Origin: an uncultured Kordiimonas sp.
GTDB lineage: Bacteria; Pseudomonadota; Alphaproteobacteria; Sphingomonadales; Kordiimonadaceae
Direction of reading: 5' to 3'
Assembly (NCBI GenBank): GCA_947503575.1
Contig: CANNDZ010000001.1
Coordinates: 62,001-126,000 of the forward strand
DNA: 64,000 nt
The translations under genes and the position numbers were made by a program. Within the stretch, counting starts at the first letter, position 1; the number at the start of each line of letters is the position of its first letter. Below the pieces are notes generated by a model. That model was given only the letters and a program-made list of their open reading frames with translations. It was not told where the DNA came from and did not search any database. Shown one piece after another: positions 27,658 to 45,093 of the stretch.

Positions 27658-28818
27658 TCACGCCACCCATATGTCCGCTAGCGCCCGTTTGAAATTACCA
27701 CCAAGGATTTTGCCGATATCGTCGTCCGAGTAGCCCCGGCGCAGCAAGCCTTCTGTCAGATCATACATGCGTTTGGGGTGATCAAATCCATCGGTGTCGA
27801 GCTTATCACGGAATCCATAAGAACTTTTATAGCCAGACTTTAACGCACTATAGGCGGGTTCAGGAATATCATCATATCCATCCGGGTCCATGTCAGACCC
27901 AACACCCAAATGATCCACCCCGACCAAACGCGCCACATGATCGTAGTGATCCAACATATGCTCAATGGTGGTCGGTTCCTTGTCGCGCACAAAATTGCGC
28001 ACACCGGTGATGCCAACCACACCGCCTGATTTTGCCGCCGCAACAATGGCCTCGTCAGTTTTGCAGCGCGGGTGACCCGGCACCAAGGCCCGGCAATTTG
28101 TGTGGGTAATCAAAACCGGTTTTTTCGACATCTCAAAGGCATCCAGGGTGGTCCGGTCCCCGCAATGCGAAACGTCAACCGCCATGCCGACTTCGTTCAT
28201 GCGCTCAACCACTTGCACACCATAGTTGCTTAGTCCCCCGTCGGAGCGGTCTGTCGCGCCTGTCCCAATTAAATTGCGACTGTTGTAGGTGAGTTGGCAT
28301 ACCCGCTGACCAAGATTGTAAAAAAGGTCGATGTCGTTCAGTTCTTCAAAGTGATTGGCTGTTTGCAGGCCAAGGATGAATCCCATCGTATCCTTTGCCT
28401 GCACACGTTCAAAGTCTTCGACACTATCAACCCGGACAAGGGCACCGGGATGATCGCTGGCATAGCCATTGTAGCGGGACATAATCATGTAGGCTTCTTC
28501 TTTGGAGCCGACACCTATCGCGGGATGGAAAACATCGATGCCCATCGAAAACAGTTTCTTCAGATGATCTTCGTCAACTGCTGGACCGTCTACCCTTTTT
28601 GGTTCGTCCCCGAAGGCCGCCAGAAACATTGGCCCCATGGGGGCAACAACAGACAACATATCGATAACCAAGCTGCTGTTGACCAGGTCGATTGCTTTCG
28701 CGCTGTAGGTTTTCTCGGATTGCGCAAACAATCGGTAACTGCCCATATTAAGCATGGGAAAAGCAATGGCGGCTGTTGCTGTTTTCTTTAAAAATCGCCT
28801 GCGTGTTTCTGTTGTCAT
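27658..28818 (-). CDS. Exported M19 (membrane/renal dipeptidase) family protein with altered metal site
   Basis: A 386-residue protein with a Tat-like leader (TRRRFLKKTATAAIAFPML). The barrel retains VDVSHCGDRTTLDAF (His218), PVLITHTNCRALVPGHPR (His239) and GVGSDMDP, matching the human enzyme's His198, His219 and Asp288 region. The usual N-terminal His-x-Asp is absent (VIDMLSV at 51-57) and the bridging Glu reads Gln (Q152 in GLQTAN). M19 enzymes cleave dipeptides, including those with C-terminal D-residues. The second ATG (28818) is used because GAGG directly abuts the first (28824). Last gene of the left arm of the D-amino-acid locus. Confidence 0.88.
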   Translation of the reverse strand: MTTETRRRFLKKTATAAIAFPMLNMGSYRLFAQSEKTYSAKAIDLVNSSLVIDMLSVVAPMGPMFLAAFGDEPKRVDGPAVDEDHLKKLFSMGIDVFHPAIGVGSKEEAYMIMSRYNGYASDHPGALVRVDSVEDFERVQAKDTMGFILGLQTANHFEELNDIDLFYNLGQRVCQLTYNSRNLIGTGATDRSDGGLSNYGVQVVERMNEVGMAVDVSHCGDRTTLDAFEMSKKPVLITHTNCRALVPGHPRCKTDEAIVAAAKSGGVVGITGVRNFVRDKEPTTIEHMLDHYDHVARLVGVDHLGVGSDMDPDGYDDIPEPAYSALKSGYKSSYGFRDKLDTDGFDHPKRMYDLTEGLLRRGYSDDDIGKILGGNFKRALADIWVA

Positions 28819-28937
28819 GATCATCCTCTGTCACAAGATTGGTTGGGGTGGTGCCCCAACGCTGTTTTCCTAATTTTCAGATAGTGTCAGAAGAGCCCGC
28901 GCAGGCACTTCTGAGATGGTTAGAGTAGCCAATGTGC

Positions 28938-30884
28938 TTACAGGTACTGCCAGCCGAAGAAATTCCAGTAACTATAAAAGAACAGCATGAACAGGCCTGC
29001 TGCTGCTACCAGCGTGTAATGAACGCGCCGGCCAACACGCCAGAAGTCCTCTCGCCATGCTTTGACCGCAAAATAGGCCATGCCAAGCGTGATTGGAATG
29101 ATCATGAGCGGCAGGACAAGGCTGACCTTGAGTATCGTTGGGATACCGAGAAAGAGGTCGATCTGGTAAGTCGCAATGATGCCTATGGTCAGACAAACAA
29201 ACACAATGTTCAGTGCGCTTGTAGCCATAGAAAGCCTGATCGCCGTGCGCTCGCCAGCCGGCATGCTTTTATAGTCCTTGCGGCGGTACAACCAGCCGGT
29301 CCAAACCGTCAGGAACAGCAGCAGGGACGCTAGCGGTAACAACATTTTAAACGTGGGCGACTCAAGTGCAGGGGCACGGCTTAAATCCATAAATGGCAAG
29401 CCATCGATATGCAGATCATAAATGTTGCCGTTTGTGTCTTCCCCAAAGGCTATTTTTAGTTTGCCGTCCACTTGGCGAAACAGATTGGTGTCAATTTCAA
29501 CAAACTGCCTTGGGGCTTCGAAACCTGATAAAATCAGGGTGTTATCACCGGATGGAGCCACCGAAAAACCAGTATTTGCAAGGCCCATCGCCTTTTCCAG
29601 TGTGCTGAAGTTTCGGCGCCAGAAAAAGTAGGTTCCGGCATATTTGTCTGCCCGTTCGTTAAAACCACTTGGCGGCGTGATGGCCTCTAGCGGCTCGGGG
29701 TAATAATGATCATAGAAGGTGTTGATAAACTCCGAGCGCCCTTTGGTGCCTGTCATTGTCTGATAGGACACAAAAATGCCCAGGCCTTCGTCCTTATCAA
29801 TCAACATATCTGTGTGAAACTGAAAGGTGTCGCCACCGTGCCCGATAAGGCGGTGCCCATTTATGTATGTCTCATAAAATCCATGCGCCATGGCGCTCAG
29901 GCGGTCATCTCCCTGATAGAGAACCGAGTGCATTAATGCTGTTGTTTCAGGCTTCAGGATTTGAGCACCGCCCAATGTGCCATCGTTCAGGTGTGCCATC
30001 ATGAACTTTGCCATATCGGCAGCCGTTGACGCCACAGAGCCCGCAGGCCTGAAGCCACCCAAAACCTCAAAAGGCATCGGCGAAAAAACACCAGCCTCCC
30101 GCTCATAACCAACCGTCATGTCATCAATGATGTTGTCCGGCAGCGGCTCGCGGAATGTGGTGTTATTCATGCCAAGTGGCTTGAAGATATTGTCTTCCAC
30201 ATAGTCATTAAACGGTACGCCAGTAACATTCTCCACGATCAAGCCGGCAAGAGCTGTCGCGTAATTGGAATAGGAACCATAAGCACCCGGTTTGTTGACC
30301 CGCGCGGGAATATATTTGGACAAGAAATCCCTGATGCTGGAGGACTTTTTGGGGTCGTAATTGATCAGATAGCCAAGCCCGCCATCTTCAAAACCCGGGG
30401 TATGCGTCAGGACATGCTTTAGCGTAATGGGTTCTTCAAATGTGTCAGGGATCTGAAAGGTTTTCAGATACTCATTAACATTGGTATCAAGATCCAGGTT
30501 ACCGCGTTCATACTGTTGCATAATGGCTGTCCATGTGAACAGCTTTGATGTGGACCCGATGCGAAACAAGGACTTGTCCGCAGTAACAGGAATATCCTTT
30601 TCCCGGTTCTGCATGCCATAGCCTTTGGCCAGAATAACCTCTCCGTCTTTAACGATAGATACGGTCATCGCTGAAATATCCAACAACTTGAATTGGGTTT
30701 CCATCATGCCGTCAACGAACGTGTCCAGATGTGGATATGGCTCAACGCTTGTATCCTGACTGGTGTCCTGACTTTGTTCGCCTTGGTCCTGCGCAGAGAC
30801 GGGAATTGTCATCAATAATGTAGTGCTGGCTAGTAACGCCAAACACCACTGCCTCATACCATCAAGTATATGTAAATTTTTCAT
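28938..30884 (-). CDS. Exported SxxK serine hydrolase (beta-lactamase/D-aminopeptidase fold) with membrane tail
   Basis: A 648-residue protein. Signal peptide to about residue 32; a penicillin-binding-fold domain with SxxK (S111-T-S-K114), YSN (205-207) and an HxG-type third motif (IGHGGDTF); then a beta domain and about four C-terminal membrane segments (from FKMLLPLASLLLFLTVWTGW). Relatives include D-aminopeptidases, esterases and class C-like carboxypeptidases, all acting through acyl-serine. ATG 30884 fits the signal peptide; ATG 30899, 3 nt after the epimerase stop, is an in-frame alternative. Fourth gene of the TBDR-deacylase-epimerase operon. Confidence 0.88.
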   Translation of the reverse strand: MKNLHILDGMRQWCLALLASTTLLMTIPVSAQDQGEQSQDTSQDTSVEPYPHLDTFVDGMMETQFKLLDISAMTVSIVKDGEVILAKGYGMQNREKDIPVTADKSLFRIGSTSKLFTWTAIMQQYERGNLDLDTNVNEYLKTFQIPDTFEEPITLKHVLTHTPGFEDGGLGYLINYDPKKSSSIRDFLSKYIPARVNKPGAYGSYSNYATALAGLIVENVTGVPFNDYVEDNIFKPLGMNNTTFREPLPDNIIDDMTVGYEREAGVFSPMPFEVLGGFRPAGSVASTAADMAKFMMAHLNDGTLGGAQILKPETTALMHSVLYQGDDRLSAMAHGFYETYINGHRLIGHGGDTFQFHTDMLIDKDEGLGIFVSYQTMTGTKGRSEFINTFYDHYYPEPLEAITPPSGFNERADKYAGTYFFWRRNFSTLEKAMGLANTGFSVAPSGDNTLILSGFEAPRQFVEIDTNLFRQVDGKLKIAFGEDTNGNIYDLHIDGLPFMDLSRAPALESPTFKMLLPLASLLLFLTVWTGWLYRRKDYKSMPAGERTAIRLSMATSALNIVFVCLTIGIIATYQIDLFLGIPTILKVSLVLPLMIIPITLGMAYFAVKAWREDFWRVGRRVHYTLVAAAGLFMLFFYSYWNFFGWQYL

Positions 30885-30902
30885 CGGTTTATCCCCCATT
30901 TT

Positions 30903-31913
30903 TTATCCCCATAGTGCGGCTGTAGGCAGACCAACAATGCCGCCCTCCGCATAGTCGAGACCATTTTCAATATCCTGCTGCATTAACAAAGGGCCATCGA
31001 TGTCAACAAATCGGCAAAACTGCCCAATGACATAAGACGGCGCCATAGAAAGCGACGTGCCCATCATGTTTCCAACCATCAGGCCTTTTTCATCTATTTG
31101 CGCCTGCTTGACGATTTGCAGGCCTTCGGTCAGCCCGCCGCATTTATCGAGTTTGATATTGATGACGTCATAGCGTTTTGCCGCCACTGCATATTCTGAC
31201 AAATCAAGGCAGGACTCGTCCGCACCGAGCGGTATAGGCGATGTGTACCCTTCCAGTTCCTCATCGCCGCCGCGCGGCAACGGTTGCTCAATCATTGCAA
31301 CCCCCAGCTTTGCAGCCTGCGGCAAATATTCCTGCAACTCTTTGAAGTCCCACCCTTGATTAACATCCACCACAAGGCTGGCATCCGGGCGCGCCAGGTG
31401 GATAGCCTCCAACCGTTCAATGGGCCGGTCACCGTCCAGTTTTATTTTCAGGTTCGGGTATTTGCCATAGTTTACGGCTTGTTTTGCCATGGCCTGTGGC
31501 TCAGCGATACCAACTGTTGCAACGGTCGTTAACAGTTTCGGGTCAACGCCAACTTCCTGCCAAATACTGGTGTTCTTCATCTTGCATCGCAGATCCCACA
31601 AAGCGCAATCCAGCGCATTGCGGGCACCGCCAGGTGGCAAAATTTCCAGCAGAGCGTTTGTGGTCAAGTCTGCTGCCACCTGATCTTTTATGGCTTCCAA
31701 CTGACCGATCATGGACGGGATGGTCTCATCGCAGTAATAAACGCCGATGGCTTCCCCCCGGCCTGAAACACCATCTTGCGTTAATGTGATTAGAAGCGTT
31801 TCGGATTCAGTGAAAGTGTACCCCGTAATAGAAAAAGGTGTGGTATAAGGGTAAGAAACAACGTCTATTTTCATGGTAAGCGGCATACGGTCATCCGTTC
31901 TCAAATATTGCAT
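30903..31913 (-). CDS. Dipeptide epimerase / N-acetyl-D-glutamate racemase-like (enolase superfamily)
   Basis: A 336-residue enolase-superfamily enzyme of the L-Ala-D/L-Glu epimerase type. The whole active site is visible: KIK (K156, K158), metal ligands D183 (VVDVNQGW), E209 (IEQPLP) and D232 (GADESC), and the second catalytic Lys at 254 in INIKLDKCGG. No signal peptide, so cytoplasmic. It may epimerise muropeptide-derived L-Ala-D-Glu or, given the DUF1611/DgcN-like gene in the same locus, act as the DgcA-type N-acetyl-D-Glu racemase. The ATG at 31913 overlaps the upstream stop (TAATG), implying translational coupling. Confidence 0.9.
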   Translation of the reverse strand: MQYLRTDDRMPLTMKIDVVSYPYTTPFSITGYTFTESETLLITLTQDGVSGRGEAIGVYYCDETIPSMIGQLEAIKDQVAADLTTNALLEILPPGGARNALDCALWDLRCKMKNTSIWQEVGVDPKLLTTVATVGIAEPQAMAKQAVNYGKYPNLKIKLDGDRPIERLEAIHLARPDASLVVDVNQGWDFKELQEYLPQAAKLGVAMIEQPLPRGGDEELEGYTSPIPLGADESCLDLSEYAVAAKRYDVINIKLDKCGGLTEGLQIVKQAQIDEKGLMVGNMMGTSLSMAPSYVIGQFCRFVDIDGPLLMQQDIENGLDYAEGGIVGLPTAALWG

Positions 31914-33589
31914 TAGTGTTGGCGTTCGTAGCCCGGCCCGCGCAAAACATGGCCCGGCGTTGTGCCAGTGTGGCGTCCCTCATCAAGCACCAGTTCGCCG
32001 TTAACGATAACATACTCAATGCCCTTTGGTTTGGCGGTAGGGTCCGCCCATGTGGCCGTATCTTCGATTGTATCCAGATCAAAGATAACAATATCAGCAG
32101 CCAATCCTTCCCGCAGGACACCTCTGTCCGTCAAACCCATCCGCGTTGCAGGCCAGGATGTCATCTTGCGGATTGCTTCCGGCAGGGACAATACTTCTTT
32201 ATCCCGAACATAGGTGGCAATTATCTTGGGAAAGGTGCCATAGCTGCGCGGGTGTGGAAGACCCAGTGCATCCAGATCGCCTTCTTTCAAAGCGGAAGCT
32301 GCATCGCTACCGATACTGACGAACGGGCTTTTCAAGGCTTGCTGCACATCGTCTTCGTTCATCATGAAAAAGAGCGCAAGGGGTCGATTAGGCTGAGCCT
32401 CCAACAGTATATCCCAAGCAATATCGGCTGGATCGCGTTTGAGGATATCTGCGATTTCGGCAAAGTTTTTGCCATGAAAACGAGCATAATCATCCAGGTA
32501 AGAGTTGGCCAAGACAACATTTTTCCACCCCCCTGAGGAATACACAAGATTGGTCCAACCTGCTGTCGGGCCAGCGGCCAGTTCTTTTTTCATGCGTTCT
32601 CGCATTTGCGGGTCTTTAAGCCATTCAAGTGCTTGTTCCACCCCTTTAGCGTACACCCAGTTCGGGGCGGTTATTTCAAGGCCCGTACCACCAGCAACAT
32701 AAGGATACAGATCGGCCGCCACGTTGACACCGCGATCCCGGGCGAACTGTATCAAGGCCAGGGCTTTGGGCATGTCTTTGCCCCAATTGGGGAAATAGGC
32801 CGCTTTCAGATGAAAAATCTCAACGCCAGCACCGCTTTCTTCACCGATGCGAATGGCTTCTGCGACAGCCTCCACAAACTTTGCGCTTTCATCCCTGATA
32901 TGGCTGGCATAGATGCCATCGTAACTTGCAGCAACTTTAGCCAGCTCAATCAGGTTTTCGGTTTTATGGTATGCGGACGGCGGATAAATCAGAGCTGTTG
33001 TGATGCCCATGGCACCAGATTGCATAGCTGTGGCGACAAGCGCTTTCATCTGGATCAACTGATCCGGCGTTGGGTCCGCAGCTGAGTCACCCAATACCGC
33101 AACGCGAGCTTGTGTCGCGCTATAGTAAGTGCCGAAGTTGACAGAGATGCCTTTATCTTCTAGCTCCTTGAAATATGCTGTAATCTCTGCCGCTGGAACC
33201 ACTGTGCCGCCTTCTCCGCCAATAAGAGTGGTCACCCCCATATTGATCTTGTTCGGCGCAAGGCCAACCTCCAGCAGGGCCCCGCCAGACTGATCCATCA
33301 TGTCAATCCATCCGGGCGAGACATACTTTCCTGCCACATTGATTTCGCGAACGCCCGCACCCTCGATGCGGCCGATTTTTGCAATTTTGCCGTTCTGGAT
33401 TGCGATGTCCGCGGACACCCACGGGTTGCCCGCACCGTCAAGGACACGACCACCCCGAATGACCAGATCATAATCACTTGCCAGCAACCGAGGCGCTGGC
33501 ACCAAAAGCATGCAAAAGGCTAAGAAAGCAAAAAACACCCTGGTCGCTCGCTTTACCTCTGCATCCCGCGTCATGAAAAATACCTGCAT
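31913..33589 (-). CDS. Exported N-acyl-D-amino-acid deacylase-like amidohydrolase lacking the HxH motif
   Basis: A 558-residue amidohydrolase of the D-aminoacylase family. N-terminal signal/anchor (VFFAFLAFCMLLVPAPRLLA). Family frame DYDLVIRGGRVLDGAGNPW and C-terminal ADIVIFDLDTIEDTATW are clear. Retained ligands: H230 (YASHIRDES), H260 (EIFHLKAAY) and the Asp of SIGSDAAS. The HxH after strand 1 is replaced by DMMDQ (96-100), and the bridging Cys position reads Glu126 (IGGEGG). It may remove acyl groups from N-acyl-D-amino acids with one metal, or have a new specificity. ATG 33574 is an alternative start. Second gene of the left-arm operon. Confidence 0.88.
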   Translation of the reverse strand: MQVFFMTRDAEVKRATRVFFAFLAFCMLLVPAPRLLASDYDLVIRGGRVLDGAGNPWVSADIAIQNGKIAKIGRIEGAGVREINVAGKYVSPGWIDMMDQSGGALLEVGLAPNKINMGVTTLIGGEGGTVVPAAEITAYFKELEDKGISVNFGTYYSATQARVAVLGDSAADPTPDQLIQMKALVATAMQSGAMGITTALIYPPSAYHKTENLIELAKVAASYDGIYASHIRDESAKFVEAVAEAIRIGEESGAGVEIFHLKAAYFPNWGKDMPKALALIQFARDRGVNVAADLYPYVAGGTGLEITAPNWVYAKGVEQALEWLKDPQMRERMKKELAAGPTAGWTNLVYSSGGWKNVVLANSYLDDYARFHGKNFAEIADILKRDPADIAWDILLEAQPNRPLALFFMMNEDDVQQALKSPFVSIGSDAASALKEGDLDALGLPHPRSYGTFPKIIATYVRDKEVLSLPEAIRKMTSWPATRMGLTDRGVLREGLAADIVIFDLDTIEDTATWADPTAKPKGIEYVIVNGELVLDEGRHTGTTPGHVLRGPGYERQH

Positions 33590-33700
33590 TTCACTATGAA
33601 CCTTTTTGCCTTCAAAACAGAAGACCCTGTCTAAGCCGAGAGCCCCAGAAGTGAAGACAAAGCCTCACCCTAAGGGGCATCCCGGGAGGGTAGTTAATGG

Positions 33701-35926
33701 TTAAAAGTCTACCCGGATATTGGCACCAATCGTCCGGGGCCTCTCAAACACGCCTGTTGGGGCGGGTACTGCACCACCAAGTATTTCATCAAACCGGCTA
33801 AGGAGCGCTCGGTTATCAAACAGATTTGTTGCATACAGACCCAAATGAACATTGCCGTTTGAAATGCCGATATTCACATCAGCAAACGTTCTGCCATCGA
33901 CGGGCACGCTCAACTGCGTGACAGACTGCCTGAAAGCAGAATTGAACCCCCCGATATAGCGGATGCCGCCCCCAAAAGACCCGGACCAGTTCCCTGAAAC
34001 ATCAAATGTATAGTTCCATTGCAGCGACCCCTTCCAATTAGGCAGGTTGGGAACGTTTTCGCCCTCCTCGCCCTGAATGCCGGGTTCATCCTCATCCAGG
34101 GTACTGGACGTATAGCCAAGATTACCTGTGATGCTGAAATTATCAATTGGCCGCATGGTCACTATACTCTCAAAGCCATAAGCCGTTATCCCGCCTACAG
34201 CGTTGCCGCCCGTGGTGACGCCGTTTGCACTAACCTCTGACTGGAAATTGTCCCAGCTGATGCGCCACAGCGCGACATCAAAATCAACTCTTCCGTCAGC
34301 CGCCGTGCCTTTTGCGCCCACCTCATAACTCCAGGCCTGATCCGCCTCCACAACGGGAGGGGCCAGGTCTTCTCCAGTGAACGGATCAATGATGGGGATA
34401 TTCGCCTGCGCCGGGCGGTAACCGCTGGCGGCACGGGCATAAAGCGACAGGTCCTCATGAACCCGGTAACGAGCGGCAAAAAGATACGTATCCACTGTGT
34501 CTTCCAGCACATTACCCAGAATTTCAGACTCACCAGCAAGCGGCCCCGATGTTGTAAGGTCCAGTGATATCTCGTTCTTGCTGATTCTGATGCCGCCAGA
34601 AACATCAAAGTTTTCAGTGAAGTAATAGGTGGCGTTCGCGAACCCAGCATATTCCGTGTATTCAGATGGGAAATCAGCAAAAAGCAAATCGAACGTTGGT
34701 ATGGCATTAACGTCCTGAACATTAAATGTTTCTTCGTTGGTATAGAAGAAACCCGCGAGCCATTCGAACTTGTCACTTTCTGCGGACGTAAGACGGATTT
34801 CCTGAACAATTTTCTCTGAGCCGCTTGATGCCACAAAACTCACGTTGGTGGTGGTGCCAGGTGGGTTGTCGGCAATAATGTCCGTCAGGCCAGCAAAAGC
34901 GGCTGTGAAGTCCGTTACGGACTCATTGGCATACTCAGCGTGGCTTGTTGTGGATGTGAGAGAAAAGGCACCGAAATCATAATTGATCGTGCCTGAGTAT
35001 ATCTCAAAATCCAGATCAATTGGCCCCGGGGCATCAACGCTTGCATAGTCACCGAACAAACCTTCATCCGTGTCGGCACCCGCAAGATTAACGTTAGATA
35101 AGAAGTCCGCTTCGTTTTCCTGTTTGACGTATTTCAGCCGCACTTCAAGTGCTTCGGTGGGCGTGAATAGTACGTCGGCAGAATAGCCAATTGCTTCACC
35201 GCCGTTGATATCTTCAAACAAGACATTGCCTGTGGCGGGGTCAACAGAATCCACAAACCCAGCTTGATGCTGGTAATAAGCCGCGACCGTAACACCCAGT
35301 TTGTTTTCAATGACCGGCACGCTGACACGGCCGCTGAATGTTTCTCCCCATTCACCACCTTTCACGCTGGATACATCCGCACTGAACGATGCCCTAAATT
35401 CTTCGAGGGCCGGGTCACGGGAAATGTAGCGCAATAGCCCACCAACAGATGTTGCGCCAAATAGGGTTCCTTGAGGCCCTTTGATAACCTCTACCCGCTC
35501 TACGTCCAGAAGCAGGCCATCCAGCAGGGTGTTTGCACCGTTACCAAAATTCGTATTAGACGTGAGCGGCGTATCGTCAATATAAATGCCAAATACAGGG
35601 GTTGCAGATGACTGTGGCACACCGCGGGCGGCAATGGTCCCCCGACCAGGGGTCCCGACCTCTGTGTATTCAATACCCGGAACGTAGTTCAGCACGTCTT
35701 CCAGTTGCTGAAGGCCCTTGAACTTATAATTATCCGGGGAAATGGCTACCACTGCAGCTGGGACATCTTGCAATGATTGGCTTCTGCGGCCTGCTGTTAC
35801 AATAATTTCTTCAAGTTCAAGCTCTTCGTTGTTGCTGTCTTGGTCCTGCGCCACAGCACCCGTAGAAAACGCAAGCGCTGAAATACATGTAGATGCAAAG
35901 CATCTCCCCCGAATGGTCTGTCTCAT
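33701..35926 (-). CDS. TonB-dependent outer-membrane receptor
   Basis: A 741-residue receptor: signal peptide (CISALAFSTGAVAQ), TonB-box-like ELEEIIVTAGRRSQSLQDVP, plug with VIKGPQGTLFGATSVGGLLR, and a barrel ending GANIRVDF. GGGAGGAATTT precedes the ATG. First gene of an operon that continues into N-acyl-D-amino-acid deacylase, dipeptide epimerase, SxxK hydrolase and dipeptidase. Its likely cargo is therefore a peptide or acylated amino acid with D-residues rather than a siderophore. It is divergent from a GntR regulator. Confidence 0.93.
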   Translation of the reverse strand: MRQTIRGRCFASTCISALAFSTGAVAQDQDSNNEELELEEIIVTAGRRSQSLQDVPAAVVAISPDNYKFKGLQQLEDVLNYVPGIEYTEVGTPGRGTIAARGVPQSSATPVFGIYIDDTPLTSNTNFGNGANTLLDGLLLDVERVEVIKGPQGTLFGATSVGGLLRYISRDPALEEFRASFSADVSSVKGGEWGETFSGRVSVPVIENKLGVTVAAYYQHQAGFVDSVDPATGNVLFEDINGGEAIGYSADVLFTPTEALEVRLKYVKQENEADFLSNVNLAGADTDEGLFGDYASVDAPGPIDLDFEIYSGTINYDFGAFSLTSTTSHAEYANESVTDFTAAFAGLTDIIADNPPGTTTNVSFVASSGSEKIVQEIRLTSAESDKFEWLAGFFYTNEETFNVQDVNAIPTFDLLFADFPSEYTEYAGFANATYYFTENFDVSGGIRISKNEISLDLTTSGPLAGESEILGNVLEDTVDTYLFAARYRVHEDLSLYARAASGYRPAQANIPIIDPFTGEDLAPPVVEADQAWSYEVGAKGTAADGRVDFDVALWRISWDNFQSEVSANGVTTGGNAVGGITAYGFESIVTMRPIDNFSITGNLGYTSSTLDEDEPGIQGEEGENVPNLPNWKGSLQWNYTFDVSGNWSGSFGGGIRYIGGFNSAFRQSVTQLSVPVDGRTFADVNIGISNGNVHLGLYATNLFDNRALLSRFDEILGGAVPAPTGVFERPRTIGANIRVDF

Positions 35927-36175
35927 AAATTCCTCCCGAATTTGTATGACGTCAAGAAGCTTGTCCGCTGCGCGAGTATTTTAGTCGCATTTTTAATCTT
36001 TATTCTGCTCTATTATTACTTATTTGTATTTTTGTACAGCCTTATTTTATATTTAGAATGATTAATTGATATAATTCCAGCCCATTTGAGACCTCTTGAA
36101 TGGCTGAGTCTTGATTAGCCAAGCCAATCTGTATTAGATGGTGCGCAACAAACAGGGCGTGGTGAGGATGTCGCG

Positions 36176-36884: not shown

Positions 36885-37871
36885 CTAAATGGCAACGGTC
36901 TCACCAATGCCCGCATCCTGCGCTTGCTGCAAAACGGCCCATGCGGCGTACAAGTCCTGAGTGAAAAGCCCCAGCGATTTATACAAAGTAATATCATCGT
37001 TAGTGCGCCGCCCCTCGATTTGGCCAAGCACCAGGGTACCAATCTCTCCGACAATATCGCTTTTGTTAAAATGGCCTTCACGCATTGGGATCAATAAATC
37101 ACCCGCTTCCCTCAGGGCCCCTTCAATATGATCAACATAAACCTTGCTTAGGCACACCGCCTTGGTATCTGCTTCCCGGCGTGTTGGTTCATGTGAGCCA
37201 ACCAGATTAACGTGAGCGCCGGAACGCAGCCACTTCCCCTCGAGCACTGATGCGGACGCGCCTGTTACAGTCGAGACAATATCACAAGACGCGGCTTCCT
37301 CTATTTCATCTGTGGCAACAACCGTGCACGCAAGAGAAGCAGAAAGTTCCCCAGCAAGCTGTTTTGCTTTTTCTAAATCTCGTCCCCAAATAACTGTGTT
37401 TTTGATTGAAGGTCTGGCACTGGCAATAGCCTGTGCATGATACCGTGCCTGGACGCCCGTACCGATAATACCGTGACTGAGTGCATCTTTTCTGGCCAAT
37501 AGCTGTGTTGCCAAACCCAATGAAGCCGCCGTTCTGAGCGCCGTAACAGAGGTGCCATCAATTAACGCGACTGGCGCACCGGTCTGCTGGTCAAAAAGCA
37601 CTATTGCACCTTGAATTGAAGGGTAGCCTGTCTGTTCGTTGTCAGGATGCAGGCTCAAAATTTTTGTGCCATAAACTGGCACCCCGGACGCCGCACCGGG
37701 CATGAAGCCAAGTTGTCCGCCGCTATCGATGGCTGGCATAAACGTTCTGGCAGGAGTGAAAGTTGCTCCGCTTGAAATTGCGATCATGGCTTCGCGCATT
37801 GTGCCAATGCATGATGCCATTGGCAAAAGCGTATGGACCATATCGCCGCTAATTACTTTTATCATTGTCAT
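36885..37871 (-). CDS. Ornithine cyclodeaminase / mu-crystallin family dehydrogenase
   Basis: A 328-residue protein. N-terminal substrate domain (FTPARTFMPAIDSGGQLGFMPG), then a Rossmann domain with IGTGVQARYHAQAI (NAD(P) site) and VIWGRDLEKAKQLAGELS. Family members include ornithine cyclodeaminase, ketimine and delta1-pyrroline-2-carboxylate reductases, and alanine dehydrogenases; imine reductases of this group appear in D-amino-acid and hydroxyproline catabolism, which would suit the locus. ATG 37871 follows GGGGAAA; the longer frame to 37982 adds a Cys/Trp-rich non-conserved leader. It is convergent with the GntR gene, 28 bases between stops. Confidence 0.9.
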   Translation of the reverse strand: MTMIKVISGDMVHTLLPMASCIGTMREAMIAISSGATFTPARTFMPAIDSGGQLGFMPGAASGVPVYGTKILSLHPDNEQTGYPSIQGAIVLFDQQTGAPVALIDGTSVTALRTAASLGLATQLLARKDALSHGIIGTGVQARYHAQAIASARPSIKNTVIWGRDLEKAKQLAGELSASLACTVVATDEIEEAASCDIVSTVTGASASVLEGKWLRSGAHVNLVGSHEPTRREADTKAVCLSKVYVDHIEGALREAGDLLIPMREGHFNKSDIVGEIGTLVLGQIEGRRTNDDITLYKSLGLFTQDLYAAWAVLQQAQDAGIGETVAI

Positions 37872-38118
37872 GCTCTGGTTTCCCCAATTTTGGCACCACC
37901 CGCCATAGTTCGACCATACGATTGTTTCTAAGCAGCGGTCACAGCTCATAAGACCACACATGCCGTCAACGTCAAAACTCACTTAAACAATATTTATTTT
38001 GATTTGGGGTATATTATAGCTTACTTATTCAGTTTATTAGCTTGATTATATTAGAGACAAATCACCTGACCAGATATATCAATATTTGGTCTTTCAGCGA
38101 CGCCAGGGGAGGAAACCT

Positions 38119-40053
38119 ATGACTATCCAACGGAGCACACGAAGCATTGCTGCGGTGATCGTTTCGCTATTTTTAGGTCAAGCACTCGCCCACGCCCAAA
38201 CGCACAGTAACGCACAGGCAATTGAGCAGAATCAGGAGTTGGAAGCCTTTATTGACGGGATGGTGACCGCCAATAGAGAGCAACACAACATGGCCGGTGT
38301 AGCTATCTCCGTCGTTCAGGGTGACAAGCTGTTAGTCTTAAAGGGGTACGGGTACGCTGACATTGAAAAGCGGGAGCGTGTTGACCCAGCCCACCATATG
38401 TTCCGTGTCGGGTCCATCACGAAAACATTCACTTTTACTTTGTTGATGCAATTGGTGGAAGAAGGGCGTGTTGCCCTTGATGCCGACGTTAATGACTATC
38501 TGACCAAGTTTAAAATTCCACCGGCATTTGGAAAACCAATTTTGATACGTGATTTGCTGACCCACCGCCCCGGTTTCGAGGAAAGCTACCGCGATCTGTT
38601 TGTGAACGCTCCTGAAAAATTCATGCCGCTTGAGCAGTGGCTGATGAATAACATGCCTGCACGGGTATTCCCGCCGGGTGAAAAAACCAGTTACTCCAAC
38701 TACGGCGCTGCGCTTGCCGGATACATCGTGCAGGAAATTTCAGGCACGTTGTATGAAGACTATCTGGAAGAGAAAATTCTCGTACCTCTGGGGATGAAGC
38801 TAACAACTGCAAAACAGATTTTACCGCCTGAGAGCGAGCAAAGCATGTCGCAAGAGCAAGTTGAAAATGTCGCCACTGTGTACGGTGCCAACCCAGGATA
38901 CCTGAGCCCTGAAGACTTTGAACTGATTGTGGGTGCGCCCGCGGGGTCTATTTCCTCAACCGCACTTGATATAGCGCGCTACATGAGCGCCCATCTTGGC
39001 AACGGAGCGTTTGAAGAGGCTCGTATCATACAGCCCGAAACCGCAGCTCTTATGCAATCAAGGCCTTATCCCGGTCGCCCAGCAGCCGATTATGCGCACG
39101 GTTTTCGGACTGTGAACATGGAAGGGTACGACACCTTCGAGCATGGTGGCGCAACTGCGACGTCCTATTCTTCGATGGTTATGGTTCCCGACTTGGGCAT
39201 CGGTGTTTTTGTAACGACCAACGGCGCAGATTACGGGCTGGCCCCGCAAGTTATGGCTCGCCAGCTGGCAAGAAAACTGATTGGGGATCGTAGCAAAGGT
39301 GAACCCGACTATATTGATTTTTCTGCGAAAGATGCCGCACCGTTTATCGGGCGTTACATGACAACGCGGCGCATCTACGAAGGGCGCCTTAAGATCCTGA
39401 GTGCTTTTTCGGGCGCAGACACAGTTTCCCTGTCCCCCAACAATGGCCTGCTCATCGGCGGAGCCGCGCCTAATGAATATTTCCCCATTGGCGACCAGGC
39501 ATTCCGTTCACCCAAAACCGGCGAAGTTGTTGCCTTTGTGCTTGGGGAAGACGGCAACGCGATTCGCTATACGGTTGGCTATGGTCATACCACGATGGAC
39601 CGTATGCCAGCCGACACAAACCCTCAGGCTTTGTATTTGGCAATTGCTCTGGCTGCTGTTTTATCCTTAACCCAGTTTGCGGCGGCTTGGCGAAGGCGCT
39701 CCGAACCTAAACCGGCAGAGATTTGGACTGTCCGACTATATCGCTTACAGCTTTTTTCTGCCACCTCCATGACGCTTCTTCTTCTGACAATGGTGTTTTT
39801 TGTCGCCGAATTAAGCGCATATGGAAACAGCGTCATTTTCGCGTGGCCTATCACAAGTGTCAGCCTGCTGATCGCGTTTGTCATTTTGCAGCTGTTTTTC
39901 ACAATCGCTTTGTTGACAGGGCTATGGCCATCACTATCCAAAAGCCGTTTCCCTGTGTGGGGCAAAATCCATTATGGGGTGCTTACCGCCGTCTTTGCAA
40001 ACCTGATGCTACAGTTTCATAACTGGAACATGATTGGTTTCAATTACTGGTAA
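38119..40053 (+). CDS. Exported SxxK serine hydrolase with membrane tail (paralogue of the gene at 28938-30884)
   Basis: A 644-residue protein with the same layout as the left-arm hydrolase: signal peptide (IAAVIVSLFLGQALAHAQ), SxxK (S99-I-T-K102), YSN (192-194), HGG (EHGGATATSYSS), then a beta domain and a C-terminal membrane region (YLAIALAAVLSLTQFAAAW and three more segments). It probably acts on D-amino-acid amides or peptides in the periplasm while anchored to the inner membrane. AGGGGAGG precedes ATG 38119, so the extension to 38086 is rejected. First gene of the right arm. Confidence 0.9.
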   Translation: MTIQRSTRSIAAVIVSLFLGQALAHAQTHSNAQAIEQNQELEAFIDGMVTANREQHNMAGVAISVVQGDKLLVLKGYGYADIEKRERVDPAHHMFRVGSITKTFTFTLLMQLVEEGRVALDADVNDYLTKFKIPPAFGKPILIRDLLTHRPGFEESYRDLFVNAPEKFMPLEQWLMNNMPARVFPPGEKTSYSNYGAALAGYIVQEISGTLYEDYLEEKILVPLGMKLTTAKQILPPESEQSMSQEQVENVATVYGANPGYLSPEDFELIVGAPAGSISSTALDIARYMSAHLGNGAFEEARIIQPETAALMQSRPYPGRPAADYAHGFRTVNMEGYDTFEHGGATATSYSSMVMVPDLGIGVFVTTNGADYGLAPQVMARQLARKLIGDRSKGEPDYIDFSAKDAAPFIGRYMTTRRIYEGRLKILSAFSGADTVSLSPNNGLLIGGAAPNEYFPIGDQAFRSPKTGEVVAFVLGEDGNAIRYTVGYGHTTMDRMPADTNPQALYLAIALAAVLSLTQFAAAWRRRSEPKPAEIWTVRLYRLQLFSATSMTLLLLTMVFFVAELSAYGNSVIFAWPITSVSLLIAFVILQLFFTIALLTGLWPSLSKSRFPVWGKIHYGVLTAVFANLMLQFHNWNMIGFNYW

Positions 40054-40240
40054 TGCACTATCACCCTCTTCGCCGCAGCGACGATCAACAATACTAATTA
40101 TTCCGCTTTATTTTTTATTTTGGCTGAATTAATATTGTTTTCAGTCCAAATCTGCGGTATCTAATGCGCTCTATCCGTTCAATGGTGAGCGCTCACAAAG
40201 TAGCAGCACCGCAAAGACAAATGACATCAGGGAACCGATT

Positions 40241-41794
40241 ATGAAGCCATTGGGGCAGTATTTCGCGAAACTAATACTTCTAATAGGGGTTTTGTCCTGG
40301 CCAGTGTCAGCCGATGACTATGATCTTGTTGTTATCGCAGGCCGCGTCCTTGATCCGGAAACGGGGCTAGATGCTCAGCGAAACATTGGCATCAAAAACG
40401 GCAAGATCGTTATTGTTACCACCAGCACCATTTCGGGCACACAAACAATTGATGCTACAGGCCTTGTTGTAAGCCCTGGCTTCATTGATATGCACGCCCA
40501 TGGGCAAACTATTCCAGCAGCGCGGATGCAGGCGATGGACGGCGTTACCACTGGCCTTGAACTTGAGGCCGGTGTGTTACCTGTATCAGCATACTATGAT
40601 GATATGGCCCAAGAAGGCCGGCCTATTAATTACGGCGCTTCTGTGAACTGGGCTCACGCGCGAATAGCCGCCCATCTGGATATCGAGCCAAGCCATACAT
40701 TAGAGTGGTTCTTGAGCAATTTTGGCAACCCCAAATGGCAATCCACCATTTCGAGCACAGACCAGCTCAATAAAATTAGAGCCATGGTATCTGAAGGCTT
40801 GGACCAGGGCGGTTTAGGGGTTGGTTTTTTGCTTGGATATGCCCCGGGCACCGGGCGCAAAGAATACTATCAAATCTCAAAACTGGCGGCGGAACGCAAG
40901 GTACCAACATTCACTCACGCGCGGTTCCTGTCGATGCTGGAGCCTGAAAGTTCTTTTGAAGGCATGGCAGAAATCATTTCCGTTGCGGCTGGCACGGGCG
41001 TTGCCGCCCATATCGTCCATCTTAATTCAATAAGCCTGCATGACATAGACATCATAAAACCACTGATCATCACAGCGCAAAAGAGCGGAGTCAGGATCAC
41101 GACAGAAGCCTACCCCTACGGTGCTGGATCAACAGGGATCGGAGCCGCCATGTTTCGCGGCCCAAACTGGAGAGAGCGCACCGGAGGCATGACCGCCAAT
41201 AATTTTGACGTCGGCGGCAAGCGACTGACTGAAGAAGAGTTCGCTTACCTTCAAAAAGAAAAACCTGAAACAGAAACCATCATTCACTTTCTTGATGTGA
41301 CCAAAAACGAAGACAAAGCCAAACTTGATATGTCTCTCTTGTTCCCCGGGGGGGTTATTGCGTCTGACGGTGTGCCGTGGACTATTGATGGACACCCCGT
41401 AGAGAAAGAAACATGGCCTTTACCACAAAACGCATGGTCTCACCCTCGCGGTGCAGGAACCTATGCCCGCTTCTTGCGCCAATATGTTCGCGAAACTGGT
41501 GCCGTAACACTTTTAGAAGCAATTGGGCGCATAAGCTATGGGCCTGCAAAAATACTGCAAAATTCTGTTCCGCAAATGAAACAGAAGGGGCGCATACAAA
41601 CAGGTGCAGACGCCGATATCGTCATTTTTGATTTAGCGACCATTACAGACCGCGCAACATTTGCCAAACCAGCGCAACCCTCGGCAGGCATCTCCCATGT
41701 AATCGTGAATGGCCAACTGTTAGTGGAAGACGGCATTCTAAACACAACCATAATGCCGGGTAGGCCAATCAGAAACGCGCAGCAGAGTAAATAA
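40241..41794 (+). CDS. Exported D-aminoacylase / N-acyl-D-amino-acid deacylase family amidohydrolase
   Basis: A 517-residue protein with a signal peptide (LILLIGVLSWPVSA). Amidohydrolase frame DYDLVVIAGRVLDPETG and the C-terminal ADIVIFDLATITDRATF. Unlike the left-arm relative it keeps HxH (H85, H87 in FIDMHAHGQT); Glu107 or Glu109 sits at the bridging position (GLELEAGV), with His ligands in TFTHARFL and HIVHLNS and Asp in IASDGVPW. It should therefore have a complete metal site and hydrolyse N-acyl-D-amino acids or a related amide in the periplasm. AGGGAACCGATT precedes the ATG. A YkvI-type transporter gene follows after 19 bases. Confidence 0.9.
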   Translation: MKPLGQYFAKLILLIGVLSWPVSADDYDLVVIAGRVLDPETGLDAQRNIGIKNGKIVIVTTSTISGTQTIDATGLVVSPGFIDMHAHGQTIPAARMQAMDGVTTGLELEAGVLPVSAYYDDMAQEGRPINYGASVNWAHARIAAHLDIEPSHTLEWFLSNFGNPKWQSTISSTDQLNKIRAMVSEGLDQGGLGVGFLLGYAPGTGRKEYYQISKLAAERKVPTFTHARFLSMLEPESSFEGMAEIISVAAGTGVAAHIVHLNSISLHDIDIIKPLIITAQKSGVRITTEAYPYGAGSTGIGAAMFRGPNWRERTGGMTANNFDVGGKRLTEEEFAYLQKEKPETETIIHFLDVTKNEDKAKLDMSLLFPGGVIASDGVPWTIDGHPVEKETWPLPQNAWSHPRGAGTYARFLRQYVRETGAVTLLEAIGRISYGPAKILQNSVPQMKQKGRIQTGADADIVIFDLATITDRATFAKPAQPSAGISHVIVNGQLLVEDGILNTTIMPGRPIRNAQQSK

Positions 41795-41813
41795 AGAATT
41801 TCCACCAAGCCTG

Positions 41814-42918
41814 ATGCACAAGGATACGGATCATACGCTTTTTCAAAATATATATTCTGCCGGGATTTATTTTTCAGTCTGTCGTTATAGGTGGTGGCTA
41901 TGCGACAGGCCGTGAGTTGATTGAATTTTTCTTTAGCGCAGGGCCAAAAGGCGGCGTTTTGGGTCTGTTGGTTGCCGGTGCCGTTTTTGGAATTGTGCTG
42001 GCACTCAGTTTTGAATTGGCCCGTATCAGCAAAATGTACGACTATCGCAGTTTTTGCCGCACCCTTTTGGGGCGCGGTTGGTTCCTGTTTGAGATCTGTT
42101 ATCTTATCCAACTGCTTCTCATTCTCGCCGTCATCGGCTCTGCAGCTGGTGAATTGACGGCCTCAAATTTTAATATGCCCCCGATTGCCGGCACGCTAGC
42201 CTTAATGGCACTGGTCGGCATTCTTACCTTCAATGGATCACACGTTATAAAACGTGTTTTGGCGAGCTGGTCCATATTGCTGTACGGGGTCTACCTGCTT
42301 TTGTTTATTCTCGCATTCAAAGCATTTGGCGCTGATATAAAAAGCACTTATAGCCAAGCAACCGTTGGTGCAGGCTGGCTTTCGGGCGGCATACTTTATT
42401 CAGGCTACAATGTTGCTGTTGTGCCTGCGGTTTTATTCGCAGTAACCAGCCATAAAAAACGCCGCGAGACTATAGGGGCCGGGCTGCTTGCTGGGGCGAT
42501 TGCTGTTATTCCAGCGATCTTGTTTTTTGTCGCCATGATGGGACAGTACCCGAAAATTGGTGATCAACCGGTGCCTGCAAACTTCCTGATGTCAACACTG
42601 GATATAGGTTGGTTGGCGCTGATCTTCCAAATCGTGGTATTCGGCACCTTTGTAGAAACAGGGGCCGCCCTGCTGCATGCATTGAACCAACGCCTGGAAA
42701 TTTCATTCAGTGAAGGCGGCAAAAGATTGCCACGGGCGGCTAGACCAATCGTTGCGATCTCTTTCCTGATGATAGCGATTTTTGCGGGCCACCAGTTTGG
42801 GATTGTTGGCCTGATAGCCAGTGGATATGGCCTGCTGACACTGGCATTTATCGCTGTACTGATCCTACCGCTATTAACCGTAGGCGTTTGGAAAATAGCC
42901 AAAAACGATGATATTTGA
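41814..42918 (+). CDS. YkvI-family (APC-like) membrane transporter, apparent frame disruption near the start
   Basis: A polytopic protein of about 367 residues with ~10 membrane segments, COG3949/YkvI type, a little-studied relative of amino-acid permeases. The conserved N-terminus (ILPGFIFQSVVIGGGYATGR) is readable from 41854 in the frame that ends at 42918, but that frame has no ATG, GTG or TTG between its upstream stop (41812) and a TTG at 41917, inside the first membrane helix. ATG 41814 lies in another frame (MHKDTDHT); removing one base near the T5 run at 41839-41843 would join it to FFKIYILPG. Otherwise an ATC (41830) or ATA (41833) start after AAGGA is needed. Confidence 0.75.
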
Positions 42919-42934
42919 AGAATTAGGACTGGTT

Positions 42935-43969
42935 ATGAGAACAATAGAGATTAAAGCCCCCTACATCATATTTACTGGCGAGGCGACAGACAGCACATAT
43001 GCCAAAACCGGCCTTGGTTTGGTCGAATGGCGACCGGAACTGTGTAAAGGGCAAATCAGACTAAGCAGCGGCTCCATTGATTTGGGCCTACCCTTCATGA
43101 GCCTGGAGCAAGCTGTCGATCAGGGCATCAAGTCGCTTATTATTGGTACAGCGTCTGTCGGCGGCGCCATTCCAGCCGACTGGCTGAATACGCTGGAGCA
43201 TGCAGCGAGCCTGGGCCTGGATGTTGTAGGCGGCGTACACACACGCCTTAACGACGTCGCACGACTTAAAAATGCCGCTCAGGCATCAGGGGCAGACCTG
43301 ATTGACGTGCGTGTCGCCCCTAACGATTTGCCGGTTGGAACTGGCAAAAAACGAAGTGGAAAAAGGCTGCTGATGGTGGGCACCGATTGTGCCGTCGGTA
43401 AAAAATACAGTGCGCTTGCACTGGAACGAGATATGAAAGCTGCAGGCTTGAACACGGACTTCCGCGCAAGCGGTCAAACCGGCATCATGATAGCAGGCAA
43501 AGGTATCCCAATTGATGCGGTAGTTTCAGATTTTGTGTCCGGCGCGGCAGAGCTTTTATCGCCAGACAATAGCGAAGATCATTGGGATGTGATTGAAGGA
43601 CAGGGTGGTATATTTCACCCCGGTTACGCAGCCGTTAGTCATGGTCTTTTGATTGGTTCTCAGCCAGACGCTTTCGTTGTTTGCCACGAAGCCAATCGCA
43701 CTCACATATCGGGTTGGCCGGATTTCAAGCTGCCCACAATTCAGGATGTAATTGACCGCACAATTGAAATTGGGCGCTTAACAAACCCCGACATCAGGTG
43801 CGTTGGCATTAGTATCAACACGTCTCATCTGCACGAAAGCGATGCGGTTCAATACCTGGAAACTATTGCAGGCAAAACAGACCTGCCCTGCGTGGACCCG
43901 GTACGGTTTGACGCTGGCCCGGTTGTAGCAGAATTGATTTCCAGCTTTCAACTGGAGGCTGTCGCCTAG
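42935..43969 (+). CDS. dgcN: DUF1611 protein, DgcN-like D-glutamate N-acetyltransferase candidate
   Basis: A 344-residue DUF1611 protein: N-terminal Rossmann-like domain (1-140) and a P-loop-like domain starting GTDCAVGKKYSALAL (149-163) with DVIEGQGGIFHPGYAAVSHG. DUF1611 includes DgcN, described in marine bacteria as acetylating D-glutamate so that an enolase-superfamily racemase (DgcA) can convert it to N-acetyl-L-Glu. A dipeptide-epimerase-type gene is in the opposite arm of this locus. ATG 42935 follows AGGA; ATG 42908, overlapping the transporter stop, is the alternative. Cytoplasmic. The symbol rests on family and context. Confidence 0.82.
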   Translation: MRTIEIKAPYIIFTGEATDSTYAKTGLGLVEWRPELCKGQIRLSSGSIDLGLPFMSLEQAVDQGIKSLIIGTASVGGAIPADWLNTLEHAASLGLDVVGGVHTRLNDVARLKNAAQASGADLIDVRVAPNDLPVGTGKKRSGKRLLMVGTDCAVGKKYSALALERDMKAAGLNTDFRASGQTGIMIAGKGIPIDAVVSDFVSGAAELLSPDNSEDHWDVIEGQGGIFHPGYAAVSHGLLIGSQPDAFVVCHEANRTHISGWPDFKLPTIQDVIDRTIEIGRLTNPDIRCVGISINTSHLHESDAVQYLETIAGKTDLPCVDPVRFDAGPVVAELISSFQLEAVA

Positions 43970-44064
43970 CAGACAGCAGTATGACGCCAATAAAGAGGCA
44001 CACAAAGTAGACTGCCTGAATGTAACACCTTGATGTAAAGCCCGAATATCACGGGAGGAATTTT

Positions 44065-45093
44065 GTGAAAAAGGCCCTGAAAATTATCAGTATTATCCTG
44101 TTGGTGCTTATCACGGGACCGTTGGTCATTGGCCAATTTTTACGCCTTATAGCAACAGAGGTTCCCCCACCTGGCGATCTTTTCGATGTTGGCGGATATA
44201 AGCTGCATATTCATTGCACCGGACCAGACAACCCAAACCTACCCCTGCCAACGGTTGTTATAGAAGCAGGCGCTGGCGCACCGTCACCCACCTATTACTG
44301 GTTACAAAAGGGTATCGCGGAAACCACCAAAGCGTGCGTGTATGATAGGGCAGGCCTCGCCTGGAGCGAAGAAAGCGGGTTGCCCCGCGACTCTGAGACC
44401 GTAGCAACCAAACTGCATACCCTACTAGATGCTGCAGGCATTGATCGCCCCTTTGTATTTGCAGGCCATTCGATTGCCGGGCTATACATGCGCTACTATG
44501 TCGAAAAATACCCGCAAGACTTAGCCGGTTTAATATTTCTGGACCCCAGCCACCCGGATCAAATTGAAGCGTTTGGGTTGAGCCCTGAAGTGGATGCCAC
44601 CCAGACAGAAACGCTTGAACAGCAAATGGCTGCTGTGAGGCTGATGATACAATTGGGTTTGACAGAAATATACAACCCTATGGTCGCCTTGGCACCGGAC
44701 GTAGCCAGCATGCCGCACAATATTCAAGACCAAACGCATTATGTGACAACGCGCCTGCGCTATATTGATGCGGTACCCTTGGAGAGTGGCGGTTTTGCCA
44801 TGGCCGCCGAACAAGCAGCAGAAAATGCGTCCCTCGGTGATCGGCCGGTAATTGTGATCTCTGCAACGGAGCCAATACCGGCAGAGACGTTACCTAACGG
44901 CTTTCCAGCAAACCTGACCGAAATCTTCACTGGTCTCCACAAAGAAATCGCCGCTTTATCCAGCAGCGGCAGACATATAGAAATAGACACAGCCAATCAC
45001 ATGAGCTTAGTCACAAATAAAGAACAAGTCGCAAAAACGCTCCCTTATATACGGGACGTCATAATTGAAGCTGCCCAGCAGAAAAACCCTTAG
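44065..45093 (+). CDS. Membrane-anchored alpha/beta hydrolase
   Basis: A 342-residue protein with one N-terminal membrane segment (IISIILLVLITGPLVIGQFL) that probably anchors it in the inner membrane facing the periplasm. Alpha/beta-hydrolase fold: VVIEAGAGAPS near the oxyanion hole, nucleophile elbow GHSIAG (Ser136), LIFLDPSHPDQ, and a C-terminal His in TANHMSL. Probably an esterase, amidase or peptidase. The GTG start at 44065 is supported by GGGAGGA. It follows the DgcN-like gene by 95 bases; the spacer contains a small hairpin around that gene's stop. Last gene of the right arm, substrate unknown. Confidence 0.88.
   Translation: MKKALKIISIILLVLITGPLVIGQFLRLIATEVPPPGDLFDVGGYKLHIHCTGPDNPNLPLPTVVIEAGAGAPSPTYYWLQKGIAETTKACVYDRAGLAWSEESGLPRDSETVATKLHTLLDAAGIDRPFVFAGHSIAGLYMRYYVEKYPQDLAGLIFLDPSHPDQIEAFGLSPEVDATQTETLEQQMAAVRLMIQLGLTEIYNPMVALAPDVASMPHNIQDQTHYVTTRLRYIDAVPLESGGFAMAAEQAAENASLGDRPVIVISATEPIPAETLPNGFPANLTEIFTGLHKEIAALSSSGRHIEIDTANHMSLVTNKEQVAKTLPYIRDVIIEAAQQKNP

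Follow-up and report, generated by a model that had tools for sequence, protein, structure and literature searches.

Bacteria can use D-glutamate (D-Glu) through a published route that involves DgcN and DgcA. In the accessible parts of the two reports, this pathway consists of the N-acetylation of D-Glu, followed by racemisation of N-acetyl-D-Glu (PMC10845958, PMC11747546). In marine Gammaproteobacteria, a TonB receptor gene lies beside a D-aminoacylase gene, and N-acyl-D-amino acids were proposed as substrate in the accessible part of that account (PMC3400609). Here we analysed a stretch of 64,000 nucleotides (the window) from contig 1 of the 3.6-Mb genome of an uncultured Kordiimonas sp., with a focus on a gene set around a GntR/FCD regulator that includes relatives of these proteins. 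The sequence-level basis consists of the gene set, its conservation, a shared operator, an enzyme sub-branch and a pocket change. Based on these, we propose with moderate confidence that the set forms a single regulon for feeding on D-amino-acid compounds, either peptides or N-acyl-D-amino acids, with a substrate other than Glu.

The window shares with the DgcN-DgcA pathway a homologous enzyme pair, intact catalytic residues of the racemase and genes that are mostly adjacent. It differs in that its enzymes belong to a separate branch, carry Phe in place of Arg/Lys in the racemase, and score below both curated cut-offs (369.8 versus 400 and 461.9 versus 480). In addition, it holds its own regulator and operator, a receptor, a transporter and putatively exported hydrolases. 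With the gammaproteobacterial pair, the window has in common the position of the receptor next to a D-aminoacylase gene; DgcN, DgcA, YkvI, FCD and an operator are not named in the accessible part of that report (PMC3400609). The locus is composed as follows:

27658-28824, minus strand: M19-family protein (PF01244, 241 bits), Tat-like signal by eye, HxD and Glu ligands replaced (DMLS ... Q)
28938-30899, minus strand: SxxK_L, a PF00144 serine hydrolase with STSK, YSN and HGG and C-terminal membrane helices
30903-31913, minus strand: DgcA-like racemase with G-type pocket (Gly31, Phe34); NCBIfam DgcA 369.8 bits, cut-off 400
31913-33589, minus strand: DAA_L, D-aminoacylase-like; PDB matches 1m7j and 3gip, exported by eye, IDMMDQSG replaces HxH
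33701-35926, minus strand: TonB-dependent receptor (TBDR; PF00593, PF07715), in 38/54 loci
36032-36065, no strand: operator site 1, an imperfect palindrome within the divergent promoters of TBDR and FCD; 32.5 bits, in training set
36176-36856, plus strand: GntR/FCD regulator (PF07729), bait for the 54 loci
36885-37982, minus strand: OCD-family protein of the imine reductase / amino-acid dehydrogenase type (PF02423, 216.2 bits), lineage-specific
38086-40053, plus strand: SxxK_R, a second PF00144 serine hydrolase with SITK, YSN and HGG and C-terminal membrane helices
40098-40131, no strand: operator site 2, upstream of DAA_R; 28.3 bits, outside training set
40241-41794, plus strand: DAA_R, D-aminoacylase-like amidohydrolase (NCBIfam PRK09061, 683.5 bits, cut-off 340), HxH intact, exported by eye
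41815-42918, plus strand: YkvI-like APC/LeuT-fold transporter, by fold match on the predicted model; frame open from 41815
42908-43969, plus strand: DgcN-like (DUF1611) N-acyltransferase; NCBIfam DgcN 461.9 bits, cut-off 480; PDB 7xrj, 342 bits
44065-45093, plus strand: alpha/beta hydrolase (ABH), membrane-anchored, non-core, in 5/54 loci

When named genomes were scanned with an alignment of the regulator as bait, we obtained 54 loci, all of which contain FCD by construction. They belong to Alphaproteobacteria (Kordiimonas, Emcibacter, Maricaulis and relatives, Parvularculaceae, Henriciella and others) and Gammaproteobacteria (Idiomarina, Pseudidiomarina, Parahaliea, Neptunicella and Thalassotalea). 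DgcN was detected in 43 of the 54 loci, YkvI in 41, DgcA in 40, TBDR in 38, SxxK_L-like proteins in 35 and DAA_R in 32; rarer were SxxK_R-like proteins (22), M19 (22), DAA_L (11), ABH (5) and OCD (0). Short contigs depress these counts, and many loci, here and among the first 40 DgcN loci below, come from the same genomes and are thus not independent. Four window genes that do not belong to the set and served as controls (tdh, kbl, HTH-cupin and FNR) were each found in 0/54 loci, so the recurrence of DgcN, YkvI and DgcA exceeds chance. FCD, DgcN, YkvI, an SxxK gene and a D-aminoacylase-like gene occurred jointly in 28/54 loci, and 36 of the 42 loci of at least 15 kb contained DgcN. At a threshold of at least 35% identity, DgcA was present in 35/54 loci; some of the 40 matches are a different epimerase. 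Thus the neighbourhood, on whose conservation the initial annotation had made its proposal depend, recurs with varying completeness in 54 alpha- and gammaproteobacterial loci. Of 147 genomes sampled from the order to which the window belongs, 70 had a DgcN match (30 above the cut-off), and the first 40 loci fetched around such matches held the window's set in many of those from the same genus. The FCD alignment matched 3 of the 398 genomes of a phylum sample, the window's own among them.

Families present in at least 5/54 loci were named by window match, Pfam searches of members, or eye. Among them is a DUF819 membrane protein family found in 20/54 loci (Pfam on one member). Five gammaproteobacterial loci (L098, L107, L108, L119 and L104) combine a DUF819 gene with a different enolase-superfamily epimerase (25-31% identity), which coexists with a DgcA-like gene in L119 and L104.

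The FCD upstream regions share 8- to 10-mers far in excess of shuffles, and their alignment revealed a 34-bp palindrome, TAnTACAGCCTTATTTTAAAATAAGGCTGTAnTA. A matrix trained on these regions, symmetric by construction, was scanned over the 64-kb window and gave 32.5 bits at 36032 and 28.3 bits at 40098, with a next best score of 2.0. A site of at least 19 bits was located within 400 bp upstream of FCD in 42/54 loci, that is, in the regions that trained the matrix. Beyond these we found 23 further sites at this threshold in 21/54 loci. Twenty of them directly precede a gene of the set (TBDR 10, DAA_R 3, DgcN 2, DgcA 2, M19 2, SxxK 1; Pfam confirmed one receptor from the second TBDR group). The other three precede unlabelled open reading frames, and one of the 23 lies within a called, unlabelled frame. 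No site of at least 19 bits appeared in 4.85 Mb of simulated sequence, nor when the matrix was reversed and run over the real loci.

The link between operator and regulator was also analysed in the window's order, using 96 fetched DgcN loci (97 with the window). This sample leaves out near-full matches at contig ends (G106:C308, G057:C396), shorter fragments, the divergent matches G008 and G032:C21, and the very weak G068. Sites of at least 19 bits were present in 22 of the 24 loci with FCD versus none of the 73 without; at 12 bits, the numbers were 24/24 versus 3/73. In the organism's own genome, an unsymmetrised sequence-only model derived from 34 sites gave the two arms of the locus as the best two places found (23.5 and 16.3 bits, each on both strands) among the 150 of 533 first-look candidates that were scored. 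The next was a weak third site at C2:783460 (13.3 bits) with no frame of the set nearby. Since the two best genomic sites stand at them, the two arms probably form one regulon. For the co-expression of the arms that the initial annotation called for, this shared operator is evidence at the level of sequence. Furthermore, the shared operator sits between SxxK_R and DAA_R, and the right co-regulated operon therefore most likely starts at DAA_R. Five of the six related genomes searched had an operator match at E 0.1. In Kordiimonas gwangyangensis (G046), a second TonB receptor gene remote from the main locus is preceded, at about 50 bp, by an operator site; kin of this receptor adjoin FCD in L210 and L101. 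A promoter-like match beside operator 1 was no better than shuffles, and none was found at operator 2.

The racemase sets the locus apart from the described pathway. DgcA-like proteins of the set carry the motifs ITG[YH]xF, VYY and VGNM, versus I[SA]RG, PYxRYG and VGCM or near forms in most others, in YcjG and in 4gfi. Among the 24 order loci with FCD, 19 had the ITG type and 3 another racemase; the remaining 2 had no DgcA within reach. The 73 loci without FCD comprised 47 of the Arg/His type, 4 of the ITG type, 9 with neither motif (6 of these being VYY/VGNM relatives) and 13 with no DgcA. Six loci of one order family (f5: L192, L194, L198, L200, L201 and L203) hold a G-like DgcA (SG/AG ... 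VYY ... VGNM) together with YkvI and TBDR; FCD and operator were not found in them, and they are perhaps the same system under another regulator.

Prior to motif and pocket counts, we dropped matches below 25-40% query cover or 70% length as well as identical sequences, and the identity floor for motif comparisons was 50% (36% for SxxK_L, 55% for SxxK_R). In a tree of 115 rows, 55 G-typed rows and one untyped row formed one set with a Shimodaira-Hasegawa-like approximate likelihood ratio support of 91, below the 95 mark, and YcjG and 4gfi fell among the R rows. The G type required 2 changes versus a shuffled mean of 38.8, in an alignment that retained the columns defining the types. DgcN rows likewise clustered by FCD linkage (absence of FCD: 5 changes versus 39.7). 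The 108 distinct racemase sequences comprised 47 of G-type, 48 of R-type and 13 of neither. At the position of YcjG Arg24, the G-type enzymes have Phe in 46/47 and Trp in 1/47 (Phe34 in the window), and 36/48 R-type enzymes have Arg or Lys. The catalytic pattern is complete in 46/47 G-type and 48/48 R-type sequences; in the window it reads KKDEDKK, which we take to be the catalytic Lys residues and metal ligands of the enolase superfamily. The closest solved structures to the predicted model (predicted local distance difference test, pLDDT, 90.4) are 4gfi and 1jpd. YcjG (1jpd) and 4gfi thus share fold and catalytic pattern with the window's racemase, but belong to the R rows and have Arg at the Arg24 position. 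The initial annotation had placed the end of the route at L-Glu. Because the pocket lacks the Arg/Lys found in most of the YcjG branch, the locus probably handles an amino acid other than Glu, whose side chain would be neutral, bulky or aromatic.

Several observations weigh against this interpretation. DgcN was not seen in 11/54 loci, 6 of which are at least 15 kb long, and the 19-bit site before FCD was missed in 12/54. The operator matrix was seeded with a hand-typed palindrome and forced symmetric, although an unsymmetrised model still matches both sites on both strands, and the own-genome search was confined to the 150 scored candidates. Between OCD and SxxK_R, no operator was found (best 1.7 bits at 38015); since it was found at neither gene, the regulon may include neither of them. 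In the order, three of the loci with FCD carry a different racemase, and Arg and Lys are both absent at the Arg24 position in 12/48 R-type enzymes. That this residue binds the Glu side chain in YcjG is itself our assumption. The Asp-x-Asp motif of dipeptide epimerases, to which we presume a role in their function, is kept in the window and makes a dipeptide substrate possible. Moreover, some G-type enzymes pass the NCBIfam DgcA cut-off of 400 (L115 420.3, L058 403.1, L187 413.3), so that curated annotation would name them N-acetyl-D-Glu racemases.

The last point bears on the possibility that the locus represents the known D-Glu pathway with extra uptake and periplasmic genes, which would live on peptidoglycan fragments, the pocket change having no effect on specificity. 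DgcN and DgcA are indeed the top NCBIfam matches of the two enzymes, some G-type relatives exceed the DgcA cut-off as listed above, and the pathway is described for marine bacteria in the accessible parts of the published reports (PMC10845958, PMC11747546). However, in all seven genomes typed for both (G046, G070, G073, G011, G041, G104 and G027), the best R-type enzyme scored above the G-type on the DgcA model. One further R-type (L073, 389.4) scored below the G-type of the same genome (413.3), and the matches G070:C7 and G073:C1:3923933 are untyped in this comparison. K. gwangyangensis has both pair types at separate loci, and the Arg/Lys position is Phe in 46/47 G-type enzymes. We therefore consider this explanation unlikely.

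A dipeptide reading would make the DgcA-like protein a dipeptide epimerase and place the DgcN-like protein at another step, with L,D-dipeptides recycled from cell walls or peptides. The solved neighbours include the dipeptide epimerases 1jpd, 3iji and 3deq (with Ala-Leu), and the Asp-x-Asp motif is retained. In addition, the accessible part of a report on a Thermotoga epimerase describes acceptance of hydrophobic C-terminal residues (PMC13338154). Yet in 31 of the 35 loci that have both DgcN and a DgcA of at least 35% identity, the two genes are same-strand neighbours, which suggests consecutive steps, and L086, L104 and L119 hold a second, different epimerase as well. Overall, a dipeptide epimerase at this position appears distinctly improbable to us.

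M19 dipeptidases bind their metals through HxD, Glu, His and His. In the M19-like protein, DMLS (DMLA in one sequence) replaces HxD and Gln replaces Glu, both His being kept, in 24/24 distinct sequences including the window. That the change is constant in both Alpha- and Gammaproteobacteria favours a retained function over decay. Compared with M19 membrane dipeptidases, PF01244 is thus shared but the HxD and Glu ligands are gone in 24/24 orthologues; the structure 2i5g (M19, PF01244) has the Glu-to-Gln change in common, in an alignment that did not cover its HxD region. An analogous picture emerged for DAA_L, in which IDMMDQSG stands in place of HxH in 12/12 rows at 50% identity or more, with two His and the Asp kept, versus HxH in 7/7 more distant relatives (31-35% identity) and HAH in 13/13 rows of DAA_R. 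Both proteins belong to the fold family of D-aminoacylase 1m7j and N-acyl-D-glutamate deacylase 3gip, and DAA_R has their HxH. In DAA_L this motif is gone, and the HMMER alignment pairs Gly with the NCG motif's Cys and places Glu one residue earlier. That is, the hydrolases named in the initial annotation match their families, but the M19 and left deacylase-like proteins do so without the conserved metal-ligand motifs.

Both PF00144 serine hydrolases of the window carry the SxxK, YxN and HxG motifs and C-terminal membrane helices, and SxxK and YSN are kept in 40/40 SxxK_L-like rows at 36% identity or more. They share PF00144, these motifs and the membrane helices with ClbP and D-stereospecific S12 peptidases, where for ClbP we assume the C-terminal helices as part of its architecture. 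The similarity to ClbP is moderate, and the window proteins are putative hydrolases. A locus devoted mainly to defence, in which the SxxK enzymes cut D-residue peptide antibiotics and the remainder salvages the pieces, would fit the membrane helices of the PF00144 enzymes, the match of SxxK_R to ClbP among PDB chains (3o3v, 50.4 bits) and accessible parts of reports on S12-family D-stereospecific peptidases acting against peptide antibiotics (PMC9541196, PMC12516957), but it seems very unlikely, as genes for acyltransferase, transporter and racemase are the commonest parts after the bait and a local regulon with import genes better suits feeding.

A D-amino-acid theme for the locus follows from DgcN/DgcA, D-aminoacylase and PF00144 relatives, and from the DadA-like and Rid genes of L080 and L081 described below. 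The gene content thus supports the dedicated D-amino-acid system proposed in the initial annotation, but not its L-Glu end point. The complete route to L-Glu that had been drawn up lacks a step as well: the locus itself showed no deacylase for N-acyl-L-amino acids, and none was seen in the families that occur in at least 5/54 loci. The organism's own genome contains 14 M20 matches that could perform the last deacylation.

From these data we infer operator binding by the regulator, the sign of regulation, export and localisation, transport, every reaction and the substrate. In the proposed mechanism, the GntR/FCD protein would occupy the 34-bp palindrome at two promoters, TBDR|FCD and DAA_R, and so repress both arms until a product of the substrate releases it. 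The compound would cross the outer membrane through the TonB receptor, and the exported SxxK hydrolases and DAA_R, perhaps with a part played by the altered DAA_L and M19 proteins, would free D-amino acids in the periplasm. The YkvI-like transporter may import the D-amino acids, which the DgcN-like enzyme would N-acylate. Subsequently, the DgcA-like racemase would convert N-acyl-D- into N-acyl-L-amino acids, and a chromosomal M20-type deacylase could free the L-amino acid.

The initial annotation had also described the locus as mirror-symmetric. We rejected symmetry as a design given the one-strand adjacency of DgcN and DgcA in 31/35 loci. The exceptions are L080, L081 and L084, kin of the window that share its two-arm split, and L086, where the genes lie on the same strand 3.9 kb apart. 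Apart from the window, only a few close relatives thus have the mirrored layout, and several Kordiimonas loci hold most of the set in a single row. In the Emcibacter locus L086, a gene for an AMP-binding acyl-CoA synthetase (10679-12559) separates FCD from the gene of the G-type DgcA.

The OCD enzyme, which had been counted as part of the system, was rejected as a core part since it was found in 0/54 loci. The OCD family comprises imine reductases and amino-acid dehydrogenases. In L080 and L081, the slot of the window's OCD gene is occupied by a DadA-like oxidoreductase gene and a Rid gene on the same strand, which suggests a swap of imine-handling enzymes. The DadA-like gene of L080 scored 341.8 bits (cut-off 383), and another one is present in L089; a close DadA was not found in the organism's own genome (best 33.6 bits).

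The genes of the initial annotation were confirmed as open reading frames in their places, and Pfam and NCBIfam searches agreed with their families, the YkvI label aside. For the latter protein neither search gave a match, and its transporter fold is supported by a predicted model without the first helix (pLDDT 69.8, medium confidence), the matches of which are APC/LeuT-fold transporters. The frame open from 41815 includes the conserved first helix, ILPGFIFQSVVIGGGYATGRE, and has no ATG, GTG or TTG ahead of the TTG at 41917, the first listed start. Export signals and anchors were judged by eye; six hydrolases appear exported or anchored in this way (M19 with a Tat-like signal, SxxK_L, DAA_L, SxxK_R, DAA_R and ABH) instead of five, and three enzymes (DgcA, DgcN and OCD) look cytoplasmic instead of two. 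The window's racemase gave 235.1 bits on the E. coli-type L-Ala-D/L-Glu epimerase model of NCBIfam (cut-off 343). The two SxxK proteins scored 205.5 and 202.3 bits for PF00144 in the Pfam search and missed the class C beta-lactamase cut-off of 415 in NCBIfam (98.7 and 72.7 bits). For the regulator, the FCD domain was detected with 37.8 bits (Pfam cut-off 24.3). A Pfam search at 0.001 gave no match to the GntR winged-helix domain, and the N-terminus looks like a winged helix-turn-helix by eye.

On its left side, the locus adjoins kbl, tdh and an HTH-cupin regulator gene (24677-27641); L049 likewise has these three genes together (7326-9678), close to a DgcN/DgcA pair of the R-type. A tRNA-Arg (CCG) gene lies just past the right arm (46377-46453, minus strand), and a tRNA was the sole match of an Rfam scan over 24000-48000.

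The initial annotation held that the combination was undescribed as a unit, and our searches of an open-access library gave no description of the unit, its regulator or its operator. A more specific proposal, which we put forward tentatively, is that of a separate, unreported system of marine Alpha- and Gammaproteobacteria with its own FCD regulator and operator. It would turn compounds with neutral, bulky or aromatic D-residues into L-forms by acylation and racemisation, and the rebuilt metal sites of its M19-like and D-aminoacylase-like proteins may serve a new role. The finding highlights two enzyme branches with conserved, altered metal sites. D-amino acids are described as a slowly used fraction of marine dissolved organic matter in the accessible part of one report (PMC10845958). 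A second branch with another pocket and its own receptor, transporter and regulator would make a wider range of D-residues predictable as bacterial food.

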